A program made the translations under genes and the position numbers. A stretch of DNA of 64,000 nt, from positions 1 to 64,000 of the forward strand of contig JBBDQU010000078.1 in NCBI GenBank assembly GCA_040905865.1, given 5' to 3'. Origin of the DNA: Alphaproteobacteria bacterium (GTDB taxonomy: Bacteria > Pseudomonadota > Alphaproteobacteria > UBA8366 > GCA-2717185). How positions within the stretch are numbered: position 1 is the stretch's first letter; each line of letters opens with the position of its first letter. The notes under the pieces are model-generated. The model worked only from the letters and a program-made list of their open reading frames with translations, was not told the origin of the DNA and searched no databases. Shown one piece after another: positions 39,196 to 43,983 of this stretch.

Positions 39196-40933
39196 GCTGG
39201 CGCCCCTCCCGGTTGAGTTGAATATCCAGCAGTTCGTGAATTTCCGGCGATGTCTCATCGACCGGACGGACGCCAAGCAATGGTGCCGTGCGTTCAATCA
39301 GTCGTTTGACGGACGGGGCCGCGACCCAACCGCCGGTCGCGTAGCCATGGGTCTGCTTGTTGCCCTGCGGTTCGTCAAGGATCACCAGAACCACGTAACG
39401 CGGCGCATGCATCGGAAAGGCGGCGATGAACGATGAAATCAGGGATCGCCGCCGATAGCCGCCGTTGCCCGGCTTGTCGGCCGTGCCGGTTTTCCCGCCG
39501 ACGACATAGCCTTCGGCGGAAGCGTTCCTGCCGGTGCCGTTCTGGACGACGAGCCGCATCAGCCGCCGGATTTCGGACGAGGTCCGTTCCGAAATCACCC
39601 GCTTGCCTTCCGGCGGTTCGGTCGAATCCTTGCGGATCAGGGTGGGGCGATGGACCAGGCCGCCATTGACCATCGCAGAGACTCCGGACGCCAGTTGCAG
39701 CGGGCTGACGGCCATGCCGTGGCCATAGGAAATCGTCATCGTATTCACCGGACGCCATGGCGACGGCGTGATCGGTGAGCCGACTTCCGGTAATTCGATG
39801 TTGGCCTGCCGCAGCATGCCAAGCTGGCCGAAGAATTCCTGCTGCGCTTCGGCGCCGACATCCTGCGCCATTTTTGCCGCACCGATATTGGACGAGTACA
39901 TGAAGATTTCCGGAACCGACAGCCAGCGCTTCTTGGCGTGGTAATCACGGATGAGGAACCTGGACACGCGGATAGGTTCGGTGGCGTCGTAGCCGCCGCT
40001 CAGTTTTACGACGCCATAATCCAGCGCCATGGCCGCGGTGAAAATCTTGAACGTCGATCCCAATTCGTAGACACCCAGCGTTGTGCGGTTGAATTTCTGA
40101 TCGGGCAGGGCCGTGCCGGCATTATTGGGGTCGAAATCCGGCAGCGAGGCCATGGCGAGGACTTCACCATTGCTGACATCCATGATGATGCCTGCGGCGC
40201 CGATCGCGTTGAATTCCGTCATTGCGCGGGTCAATTCGCTCTGCACGGCATGCTGGACCCGAGTGTCGATGGTCAGTTGCAGGGGCGTATTGTTGTCACG
40301 CAACGATGGATCGAAGGACCGCTCTATTCCGGCGATGCCGCGATTGTCTATATCGACATAGCCCAGAATATGGGCGGCCAGCGGCCCGTTGGGATAGACG
40401 CGGGTTTCCGCGCTCTGGAAATACAGCCCCGGAATGCCGAGCGCATTAACCCTGGCCTGCTGGCGGGGGGTCATGTTGCGCTGCAGCCAGATGAACGACC
40501 GGTCGGTTTTCAGGGATCGCGCAATTTCGGCTTCGCGAAGGTCCGGCAGCGCCCGGACAAGCTGGCGCGCGGCATCGTCCGCATCGATAATCTTGCGCGG
40601 GTTGGCGTACAGCGAGGCGGTGTTCAGGTTGGTGGCCAGCAGGACCCCGTTCCGGTCCACGATATTCGACCGGTCCATGCGCATCGCCTGGATATGCGTG
40701 GCGTGTGCGGTCTTTGGCTCCCGGGCCTCCTGAAACAGGGCGATATCGACCAGCCGGACGGAAATCGCAACGAACGCGAGCATGAGCATCGCGCCCGTGA
40801 ATACGATACGGCTATGGCTGACCTCCAGGACATGGGCGTTCCGCTTGTCCGTATGGGCTGCGCAGGGCCGGGTGCCGGCACGCTGCGAATTACGCCGCCG
40901 CTTCGACAGGTGCCTGCGCCGGGAGAAAATCAT
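39182..40933 (-). CDS. ftsI: septal transpeptidase FtsI (PBP3)
   Basis: A 583-residue class B penicillin-binding protein. A basic N-terminus and one membrane helix (RIVFTGAMLMLAFVAISVRLV) precede the pedestal domain. The transpeptidase has the catalytic Ser in LGSTFKIF, the SSN motif (MYSSNIGAAK) and the KTG motif (GGKTGTADK). It cross-links septal peptidoglycan with FtsW. ATG 40933 overlaps the ftsL stop by four bases. Confidence 0.96.
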   Translation of the reverse strand: MIFSRRRHLSKRRRNSQRAGTRPCAAHTDKRNAHVLEVSHSRIVFTGAMLMLAFVAISVRLVDIALFQEAREPKTAHATHIQAMRMDRSNIVDRNGVLLATNLNTASLYANPRKIIDADDAARQLVRALPDLREAEIARSLKTDRSFIWLQRNMTPRQQARVNALGIPGLYFQSAETRVYPNGPLAAHILGYVDIDNRGIAGIERSFDPSLRDNNTPLQLTIDTRVQHAVQSELTRAMTEFNAIGAAGIIMDVSNGEVLAMASLPDFDPNNAGTALPDQKFNRTTLGVYELGSTFKIFTAAMALDYGVVKLSGGYDATEPIRVSRFLIRDYHAKKRWLSVPEIFMYSSNIGAAKMAQDVGAEAQQEFFGQLGMLRQANIELPEVGSPITPSPWRPVNTMTISYGHGMAVSPLQLASGVSAMVNGGLVHRPTLIRKDSTEPPEGKRVISERTSSEIRRLMRLVVQNGTGRNASAEGYVVGGKTGTADKPGNGGYRRRSLISSFIAAFPMHAPRYVVLVILDEPQGNKQTHGYATGGWVAAPSVKRLIERTAPLLGVRPVDETSPEIHELLDIQLNREGRQLASY

Positions 40934-41280
40934 CGTACGCTCCTGACCGCCGAAGCGCTGACGGGTGTCCCGCGCGTCGTTTCGACCGCAAGTGTCGGGG
41001 CCGGCGTATCGACGAGATCTTCCAGCCCGCCGACCTGCGAGGTTTCCGGGTATTGGAGGTCGGGCAGATACTTGCGCGCGAGGTTCTCGATATTCTCCGG
41101 CCGGTTCAGATAACTCCATTCCGCACGGAGGACATGGACGGCGTTCTGCTCCCGCAGGATCTGCTTGTTCAACCGGCTGAGATCGTTTTGCAATTGCTCA
41201 ACCTTGAAAGTGATGTTGAACAGGGCGAAGCCCGCGATACCCGCAAGACCTATCCAGATGAAAATGGCAGTGCTTCTCAT
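40930..41280 (-). CDS. ftsL: cell division protein FtsL
   Basis: A 116-residue bitopic protein. A single membrane helix ([19 protein letters not shown], about residues 6-24) is followed by a short coiled coil ([25 protein letters not shown]) and the [15 protein letters not shown] segment typical of FtsL. It works with FtsB/FtsQ to activate FtsWI. The start is ATG 41280, overlapping rsmH by four bases; the open frame to 41322 is a shadow. Confidence 0.88.
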
Positions 41281-42239
41281 GCTGCGTCCTCCATCGGCCA
41301 TGCCGCCGCCGCTGTTCGGCAAGCGGCCCGCATCCGTGCGGACCGTGCTCGCGGATTTGCGCGCGTTTCGGTTTCGGACGGGGTCAGGCCCCGGCGGTGG
41401 AGAAGCGTGAAGGACGGCGCGCGTCGATGCGGCGCTTCGGGCGCATGACGCGAGGCGCGCGGCGCTTCGTCAGAGCGGACCCGCAGGAAATTCTTGATCC
41501 GGCGGTCTTCCAGGGAATGGAAACTGACGACAACCAGCCTGCCGCCCGGCTGCAACAGATGTTCCGCGGCCACAAGGCCGCGGTCCAGTTCGCCCAGTTC
41601 GTCATTCACATGGATACGCAGCGCCATGAAGGTCCGGGTTGCGGGGTCGATACCGTCGGCGGCGCGCGGCATGACATCGCGGATGATCTGCGCCAATTGC
41701 AGGGTCCGGGTGATGGGACCCGTTTCCCGCGCCGCAACAATGGCATGGGCGATGCGTCGGGCGTGCCGTTCTTCGCCCAGGCGCCGGATCAGGACGGCCA
41801 GTTCCCGCTCGTCGAATTCATTGACGATATCGGCGGCAGTGGGGCCCTCCTGCGCCATACGCATGTCCAGTGGGCCGTCGCCGCGAAATGAAAACCCGCG
41901 TGCGGCGTTATCCAGTTGCGGGGACGATACGCCAAGGTCGAATACGACCCCATCCAGCGCCGGGGCTCCGGCGTTTTCCAGCAGTTTCGGCAGGTCCCCG
42001 AACCGGCCGTGCAGCAGGGTCAGTCGACCGTTATATTCGCGCGCCATTTCCCGTCCCCGCGCAATGGCGTCCGGATCGCGGTCGCAGGCCCAGACTGTGC
42101 AGTCCGCCGCGTCCAGTATTGCGCGGGAATAGCCTCCGGCGCCGAAGGTTCCATCGAGGTAGACCCGGCCGTCCGCCGGATCCAGCGCGGCCAGCACCTC
42201 GTCCCGCATGACCGGGATATGACGGTCCGATGCGGTCAT
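41277..42239 (-). CDS. rsmH: 16S rRNA m4C1402 methyltransferase RsmH
   Basis: A 320-residue SAM-dependent methyltransferase (formerly MraW). It has [13 protein letters not shown], motif [31 protein letters not shown], the [15 protein letters not shown] stretch and [16 protein letters not shown]. The extra C-terminal Arg/Ala-rich tail of about 20 residues is not conserved. It is the second gene of the dcw operon and overlaps mraZ and ftsL by four bases. Confidence 0.96.
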
Positions 42240-42697
42240 GCCGGAGCTCCGCGCGGCGCGGCCGGCAGGGTATAGTCCGGCGATGTCCGATTGACTCCGG
42301 CTGCATAGGCTGCATAGAGCTCCGGCTGCCAGATGTGAAACTGCCTTCCGGCGCCGATGAATACCGCTGTTTCTTCGATCCGGGCGGCGTTGCGGAAGTC
42401 TTCCGGCAGGACGATACGGCCCTCGCCGTCTATGCTCAGTTTGCGCGCCCGGCCCAGTATAGTGGTCGTGAAATATTCCTGTTCCCTGGTGTATTTGCCG
42501 AAGGAATCGATGTTTTCGGTCAGGGCTTCCAGTTGCGCCCGGTCTATCGCTTCAAGCGCGGTTTCCCATTTCGGCGACGGGTAAATGTAAATATACCGGC
42601 CGTCTCCTTCCGGGAGTTCGGCACGAAAATCGGCCGGCAGGGAAACACGTCCCTTCCTGTCGACCTTGTTTCGGTGTTCTCCCGTGAATAACAGCAT
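42236..42697 (-). CDS. mraZ: transcriptional regulator MraZ
   Basis: A 153-residue member of the AbrB-like MraZ family, with two tandem copies of the fold. The first has [22 protein letters not shown] and the second [23 protein letters not shown]; the D-x-K/E-G-R core is conserved in both. MraZ represses its own operon in E. coli by binding a row of short direct repeats at the promoter. ATG 42697 was preferred for its fit to the usual MraZ N-terminus; ATG 42718 is in frame and possible. It is the first gene of the dcw operon, with a phased repeat array at its predicted promoter. Confidence 0.95.
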
Positions 42698-42790
42698 TCC
42701 CGTTCCCGATTTCCGCATTCTCCACCACCGGGTTACATGCTATCTTTGCCGGAGGTGCGGACCCGTTAGGTAGGACGGATTATATGTCCG

Positions 42791-42840
42791 CCATGACAAT
42801 TCATGGTACTTTATGGAGTATCATGGAATTTTTTGGGAAG
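42791..42840. promoter_or_regulatory. mraZ: five 10-bp-phased YYATGG repeats, candidate MraZ operator
   Basis: Five consecutive 10-bp units read, on the plus strand, CCATGA, TCATGG, TTATGG, TCATGG and TTTTGG, each followed by four variable bases (42791, 42801, 42811, 42821, 42831). The array spans the -10 region, the spacer and the likely start of transcription. E. coli MraZ binds TGGGN repeats with the same 10-bp spacing; the match here is in spacing, location and the TGG core, not in the full motif. Confidence 0.65.
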
Positions 42841-42844
42841 TCAA
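42817..42844 (-). promoter_or_regulatory. mraZ: predicted dcw operon promoter
   Basis: On the minus strand there is a -35 box TTGACT (42844-42839), a 16-bp spacer and a -10 box GATACT (42822-42817). Transcription would start near 42810, about 90-115 bases before mraZ. It is the best sigma-70-like match in the region upstream of the cluster and coincides with the phased repeats. Confidence 0.5.
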
Positions 42845-43197
42845 GCAACGTGCAGTAAAAGCGCGAGAACAAATGCGTCTATTCTGTTCTCTTTCAAGAA
42901 TCCAGTTTTAGCGACATCATTAAATACACCTACAAGGACTTGTGGGACCCCGATGAATAAATGATATTTTGCGAATCGGGTTCAATATATGTTCCTATAA
43001 TGTTCTTTTCGCGACATATTTATTGGCGCGTGTAATTTGGATTTTTCCGCCACAAGGACGGTTTGGTATCGGGGTCGATGCCTGTATTCTATGTTTGCGC
43101 GCTGTCCTGAAAGTGGTGGTTACGAGTATTAGTTCTTGAATTTTGGCGATGGACTGCAAGGGCGTAGCGGAAATGGCGGCAACGGAGGAATGTACAG
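42845..43197. other. intergenic region before a membrane-protein gene
   Basis: About 350 bp, clearly more AT-rich than the surroundings. It should contain the promoter of the plus-strand membrane-protein gene at 43198. No terminator, repeat or RNA structure stood out, and no coding frame with family features was seen. Confidence 0.5.
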
Positions 43198-43983
43198 ATG
43201 AGTCAGGGTGGAGCGGGTCTGGGGCCGATGCCGATAACGGATTTTGAAATCGGCGCCGTGATACGGCGCAGCTTTCTGGTGCTCTTCAAGAATTTCGGTC
43301 CGTTCATCCTGTTGTCGCTGATATTCATGCTGCCTTCACAGTTTCCGTTATTGCTGGCGTCGCCGGAACCCTCCGTCGAAGCGGGTGGTGACGTCACCGT
43401 GGATGCAATGGTTCCGTTAGCCACCTTCGTCGTGCATTTCCTGTCGACGAGCCTGCTGTCCGCCACGCTGGTATATGGCACAATCATCCAGCTGCGCGGC
43501 GGTCACGCGACGGCGATGGAATCGGTCGTGAAAGGCCTCGGCCTGTTGTTACCCGTGATCGGCGTAAGCCTGCTGGCCGGCCTGATAACCCTCGCGGGAA
43601 TGCTGCTGCTGATTGTCCCTGGAATTCTGGCATTCACCGTCCTGTGGGTCGCCGTGCCGGCGGCGGTTGTCGAAAGGCCCGGCATAGTGGCCAGTTTGCG
43701 CCGCAGCGCCGAATTGACCGACGGTTATCGCTGGCGCGTACTCGGTGTGATCGCGGTTATCCTGCTGATCAGCGCCGTGATCGAAATGATCGTGGTCGGG
43801 CCGCTGGTGGCAACCATGAACCATGAAACGGCCGGCATGCCAATTGGCGCGACAATTATCCTGCTGATTGTCCAGGCTTTTTTCGCGGCGCTGTCCGCGG
43901 TGACGATTGCTGTCAGCTATCACGATTTGCGGATTACCAAAGAAGGCGTCGGCACGGAGCACATTGCAGCGGTATTCGATTAA
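43198..43983 (+). CDS. polytopic membrane protein, function unknown
   Basis: A 261-residue protein with about six membrane helices (for example FVVHFLSTSLLSATLVYG, LLPVIGVSLLAGLITLAGMLLLIVPGI and VLGVIAVILLISAVIEMI). The DFEIGAVIRRSFLVLFKNFGPFI start and the LWVAVPAAVVERPGIVASLRRSAELTDGYRW loop resemble membrane domains found in YciC-like and glycerophosphodiesterase-membrane-domain proteins. No catalytic residues are apparent. It is convergent with the RDD gene of the MoxR locus, 32 bp away. The start ATG 43198 follows GGAGGAATG-like sequence (GGAGGAATGTACAG). Confidence 0.7.
   Translation: MSQGGAGLGPMPITDFEIGAVIRRSFLVLFKNFGPFILLSLIFMLPSQFPLLLASPEPSVEAGGDVTVDAMVPLATFVVHFLSTSLLSATLVYGTIIQLRGGHATAMESVVKGLGLLLPVIGVSLLAGLITLAGMLLLIVPGILAFTVLWVAVPAAVVERPGIVASLRRSAELTDGYRWRVLGVIAVILLISAVIEMIVVGPLVATMNHETAGMPIGATIILLIVQAFFAALSAVTIAVSYHDLRITKEGVGTEHIAAVFD

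Follow-up and report, generated by a model that had tools for sequence, protein, structure and literature searches.

A phased ATGG array in the core promoter of mraZ as the probable, inverted form of the MraZ operator in Alphaproteobacteria

The promoter predicted for mraZ in the alphaproteobacterial genome studied here is overlaid by short ATGG repeats that recur once every 10 bp, and the question is whether these repeats are the operator at which the local MraZ controls its own operon. MraZ ranks among the best conserved of bacterial regulators, and its gene stands first in the cell division gene cluster, but to our knowledge descriptions of its binding site cover few organisms (Escherichia coli, Burkholderia, mycoplasmas, and Corynebacterium). 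The initial annotation had read the repeats as the operator of the local MraZ, and comparison with related genomes supports this call well, both through conservation across the class and through linkage to mraZ. Judged by this comparison, the array is very probably the docking site of the local repressor MraZ.

Units, spacing, and promoter of the array

In the window, by which we mean the whole stretch of 64,000 nucleotides that was analyzed, the predicted operator comprises five 10-bp units on the plus strand (42789 to 42838), a prediction resting on sequence, matrix match, and class-wide conservation. The unit CGCCATGACA (42789 to 42798) is a degenerate fifth unit that reads ATGA and lacks TGG, and it is followed by ATTCATGGTA (42799 to 42808), CTTTATGGAG (42809 to 42818), TATCATGGAA (42819 to 42828), and TTTTTTGGGA (42829 to 42838), all bearing TGG on the plus strand, that is, on the strand opposite to mraZ. 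There are thus four TGG units in an exact 10-bp step plus one degenerate unit, about 70 to 125 bp upstream of the mraZ start, and TGGG is found in just one of them. The repeats had been described as five YYATGG units 10 bp apart with a degenerate last unit. The exact spacing stands and the last unit is indeed TTTTGG, but only the three middle units read YYATGG and the first is CCATGA, so that two units deviate and not one. The window units on the plus strand also fold into a hairpin of 12 pairs with a T-run behind it, antisense to mraZ (42800 to 42836).

The phasing is specific to the 10-bp period, which alone gives four in-phase units in the window, with fewer at the other periods from 6 to 15. 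Four in-phase CCA triplets on the mraZ strand did not occur in any of 1,660 dinucleotide shuffles of mraZ upstream regions. The pattern CCATN6CCATN6CCAT has a single occurrence in the 4.37-Mb genome, namely, the window array, which is weak evidence alone given an estimated expectation of about 0.5 from base composition. A matrix trained on 110 alphaproteobacterial mraZ upstream regions, with the window's own family excluded, scored the array at 35.3 bits (42799 to 42851), the top score on either strand of the 64 kb, with a runner-up of 16.0 bits.

On the minus strand, a predicted −35 box of PmraZ, TTGACT (42839 to 42844), lies next to the unit at 42829 to 42838, and a predicted −10 box, GATACT (42817 to 42822), lies inside the array. 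These are the boxes given in the initial annotation, and they are 16 nt apart as the only sigma-70-like site in 42300 to 43400; since shuffled sequences average one such site, the promoter scan by itself is at chance level and is no evidence alone. The comparison adds to the scan a class-wide TTGAC, which in 85 alphaproteobacterial loci precedes the first in-phase CCA by 2 to 3 nt, and a TAT that the matrix shows as conserved in the stretch separating units 2 and 3. At the −10 position the class has the form GNTATCCC, which raises the possibility that TACTCC, shifted onward by 2 nt, is the true hexamer. The leader predicted for mraZ in the window is about 90 nt.

The gene behind this promoter, mraZ (42236 to 42718, minus strand; 160 amino acids, with an alternative internal ATG at 42697), matches Pfam PF02381 (1.7e-21) and the NCBIfam MraZ models, and its product has an intact DxKGR/DxxGR signature. 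It is followed on the same strand by rsmH (mraW), the next dcw gene (41277 to 42239; TIGR00006, 6.8e-86), and by ftsL of the dcw cluster (40930 to 41322; NF049847, 1.4e-23). The order mraZ, rsmH, ftsL, ftsI is that of a normal dcw cluster, and the array sits at the promoter of its first gene.

Conservation across the class and linkage to mraZ

The search for related loci gave two near relatives only, and the comparison was made over about 120 alphaproteobacterial mraZ upstream regions from genomes ranging from the same genus to the same class. Aligning such regions had been proposed as a check in the initial annotation, and once this was carried out, the 10-bp-phased array proved to be conserved at orthologous mraZ promoters across the class. 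On the mraZ strand, the class array reads TTGAC-NN(N)-CCCAT-N5-CCCATGATAT-CCCAT-N5-CCCA, which on the strand opposite to mraZ is ATGGGA every 10 bp. At least three in-phase CCCA at a period of 10 were present in 75 of the 112 loci outside the window's own family and in none at the other periods from 6 to 15. In a genome-wide search, the strict array pattern was found in 93 of 192 class genomes, and of the 86 arrays in genomes whose mraZ could be located, 82 lay directly upstream of it and on its strand.

This conservation bears on the idea that the segment acts as an RNA hairpin or intrinsic terminator and not as a protein site. A terminator-like match does exist at 42800 to 42827, with a plus-strand fold of −12.8 kcal/mol (z of −2.9). 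However, what is conserved is the direct 10-bp repeat and not the pairing, the stem is absent from both related arrays that were folded, no notable plus-strand open reading frame ends at the hairpin, and Rfam gave no match in 42200 to 43200. We therefore regard this explanation as scarcely credible.

The array also follows the presence of mraZ. The strict pattern was found in 93 of the 164 genomes with a Pfam MraZ match, with degenerate forms in most of the others examined, and in none of the 28 genomes lacking such a match, 26 of which retain rsmH. A more sensitive profile detected a diverged MraZ in three of these 28 genomes (G055, G081, and G169), so this group is not purely MraZ-less, and one of the three, G081, has a recognizable array. 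Because the genomes are related, these counts are not independent and Fisher P values overstate their independence. Two sets of observations are the cleaner evidence for the linkage. The first is the contrast within families f96 and f103, each of which contains one genome with MraZ and the array and one with neither. The second comes from G157, a reduced genome of 0.8 Mb in which no mraZ is detectable and three in-phase CCCA lie directly upstream of rsmH (locus L123). It is one such case among the truly MraZ-less loci with a readable region upstream of rsmH, and the partial array is, from its sequence and position, apparently a relic left after the loss of mraZ.

An array of this kind could instead bind another regulator of the dcw genes, such as NtrX or a different cell cycle regulator, its loss along with mraZ being incidental. 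NtrX does bind upstream of mraZ in Rhodobacter sphaeroides (PMC7240162), and further regulators act on dcw transcription in Alphaproteobacteria. We rejected an NtrX site in the window because the proposed motif, GCA-N9-TGC, is absent from both strands of 42719 to 43197. The core and the period of the array also match known MraZ sites outside the class, and loci without mraZ have lost the array or keep it in decayed form, all of which makes a different regulator very unlikely.

Two further observations concern genomes without a Pfam MraZ match. In family f16, MraZ is highly diverged and is missed by Pfam (L053 of G055 and L126 of G169); L053 has GTGGG units on the sense strand, L126 has no clear array, and a short-peptide search returned no further members of this type. 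As far as these sequences indicate, the operator may have reverted or been rebuilt in the lineage of family f16. A perfect ATGGGATATA array in G302 is a tandem repeat in a coding frame and was discarded as an operator.

Orientation of the probable operator compared with known systems

For the comparison across the phylum, the strict RTGGG pattern was too strict for non-alphaproteobacteria, and in-phase TGG was instead counted on each strand. In-phase TGG was richer on the antisense strand in 116 of 122 alphaproteobacteria and richer on the mraZ sense strand in 43 of 44 non-alphaproteobacteria, E. coli included, with one tie. With TGG antisense to mraZ, the window array does not have the E. coli type of orientation, and we treat orientation as a variant property of MraZ operators and not as a defining one. 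The unit differs as well. Outside the class it is (A/T)(A/T)GTGG(G), with G preceding TGG in 89% of cases and the third G present in about half of the units, and in Alphaproteobacteria it is NNATGGGAT, with A preceding TGG in 75% and the third G present in 76%.

These figures change the view that the operator core had drifted locally from TGGG to ATGG. As ATGG is found throughout the class, it is not a local drift but the class-wide core, and it still holds TGG(G), in the form of ATGGGA in Alphaproteobacteria and GTGG(G) elsewhere. The feature local to the window is that three of its four TGG units have lost the third G. The accompanying claim that spacing and place were both kept holds for the 10-bp period, which is that of E. 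coli, but not for the place, since the window array is on the opposite strand and in the −35/−10 region, as in other Alphaproteobacteria, and the E. coli array is on the sense strand and downstream of the −10 box.

E. coli MG1655 carries GTGGGAAATTGTGGGGCAAAGTGGGA ahead of the mraZ start codon, on the sense strand. The E. coli promoter Pmra (mraZ1p) resembles the window in having TGG(G) units at an exact 10-bp spacing, the same neighboring gene, and the same signature residues, but it has three GTGGG units in the sense orientation downstream of the −10 box, whereas the window has four to five ATGG(G) units on the opposite strand, from just after the −35 box to past the −10 box. PmraBc of Burkholderia cenocepacia likewise has a 10-nt repeat (7 nt plus a 3-nt spacer) at the dcw promoter, to which MraZ binds in electrophoretic mobility shift assays; its motif is GTG, downstream of the −10 box and overlapping the start site (PMC7761207), whereas the window array also covers the −35/−10 spacer and is read on the other strand. 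The UpsM/mraZ promoter of R. sphaeroides is also an alphaproteobacterial mraZ promoter but has a long leader with a terminator (PMC5089854), in contrast to the shorter leader of about 90 nt predicted in the window. A weak antisense array lies about 270 to 330 bp upstream of mraZ in L144 and L173, two loci whose leader resembles UpsM. By resemblance, this position may correspond to that of the start mapped in R. sphaeroides, 268 nt from mraZ; the text of that report makes no mention of a binding site, repeats, or TGGG (PMC5089854).

The protein itself gives no sign of a changed specificity. The signature residues D11, K13, G14, R15, R23, D88, G91, and R92 (aligned numbering) are identical in alphaproteobacteria, non-alphaproteobacteria, and the window MraZ, as would be expected if the site were inverted but the reading head had stayed the same. 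No class-specific residues were found in the binding hairpins, and the only clear class difference is I/L at aligned residue 105. On balance we lean, by a narrow margin, toward the view that MraZ operators of Alphaproteobacteria have the opposite polarity to those of the other proteobacteria that were sampled. In this view, the same TGG-reading MraZ is placed upside down, its site has shifted from downstream of the −10 box into the −35/−10 region, ATGGGA has taken the place of GTGGG, and a LexA-type box about 160 bp upstream is coupled to the array and keeps a near-fixed distance from it. We found no description of the inverted form in the open-access literature searched, and an earlier description may exist. 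A class-wide inverted operator in the core promoter would provide a ready motif for searching for MraZ targets in Alphaproteobacteria, and it makes it testable whether a multisubunit repressor senses operator polarity and how an operator flips in evolution.

Proposed repression by MraZ and the LexA-type box upstream

The complete explanation that we propose, and which we consider highly probable, is that the neighboring mraZ has its operator in this array, in the alphaproteobacterial form (ATGGGA, inverted, in the core promoter), and that MraZ would there occlude RNA polymerase, repressing its own gene together with the dcw genes. MraZ has been solved as multisubunit assemblies (PDB 1n0e, 9qlg, 9qlr, and 9sx6), in which the DxKGR/DxxGR hairpin that binds DNA would be present many times over. 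As for the geometry on DNA, we infer that one hairpin per helical turn would contact a TGG(G) step, all on one face of the DNA, and that the protein would extend over the spacer, the −10 box, and the PmraZ start, beginning immediately inside the −35 box and reaching beyond the expected +1. Because the array covers the core promoter, bound MraZ would block RNA polymerase and thereby repress mraZ and the operon behind it. Our literature search returned no binding, footprint, or expression study of an alphaproteobacterial MraZ. In B. cenocepacia, the fragment shifted by MraZ contains four 7-nt repeats with 3 nt between them, and in E. coli, MraZ represses the genes from mraZ to murC (PMC7761207).

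The least certain step is the sign of regulation, as MraZ is an activator in mycoplasmas (PMC7761207). A second difficulty, and a point against the operator reading, is that the window units fall below the class consensus, three of the four TGG units lacking the third G and the fifth lacking TGG altogether. The array scores of the genus (35, 41, and 29 bits at L003, L004, and L005) are below the training median of about 43 bits, and relatives from the same family have more complete CCCAT units. The array could therefore be an MraZ site at which MraZ activates, or one whose degenerate units no longer work in this genus and are a decaying relic. We think this unlikely, although it is the more serious of the alternatives. 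The overlap of the array with the −35 and −10 boxes favors repression over activation, three genus members whose MraZ proteins are 73 to 94% identical to that of the window still have four TGG units in exact phase, and outside the class about half of the units do without the third G. The genus would carry weakened units of the alphaproteobacterial operator through which MraZ may still repress.

GAAC-N7-GAAC is the LexA box type of Alphaproteobacteria, and it recurs upstream of the array. It was present in 57 of 122 alphaproteobacterial mraZ upstream regions and in 1 of 44 non-alphaproteobacterial ones; with the gap set to any other length between 3 and 12, the alphaproteobacterial count was 0 to 5. 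In most of the 54 loci in which both elements were scored, the box preceded the first MraZ unit by 147 to 169 bp. A triple form, GAAC-N7-GAAC-N7-GAAC, is present in the window (42980 to 43005, minus strand) and is unique in the genome, and the lexA gene of the same genome has GAACCAAACTAGAAC near its start. The pattern suggests a conserved SOS control near the dcw cluster, and none of the titles returned by our literature search linked LexA and mraZ in Alphaproteobacteria. Between the LexA-type box and the array, the window and the loci L003 to L009 of family f1 also share the dyads CACAAGTNCTTGTG and AGAATAGATGCATCTATTCT, which are among the conserved dyads located about 130 to 260 bp upstream of mraZ.
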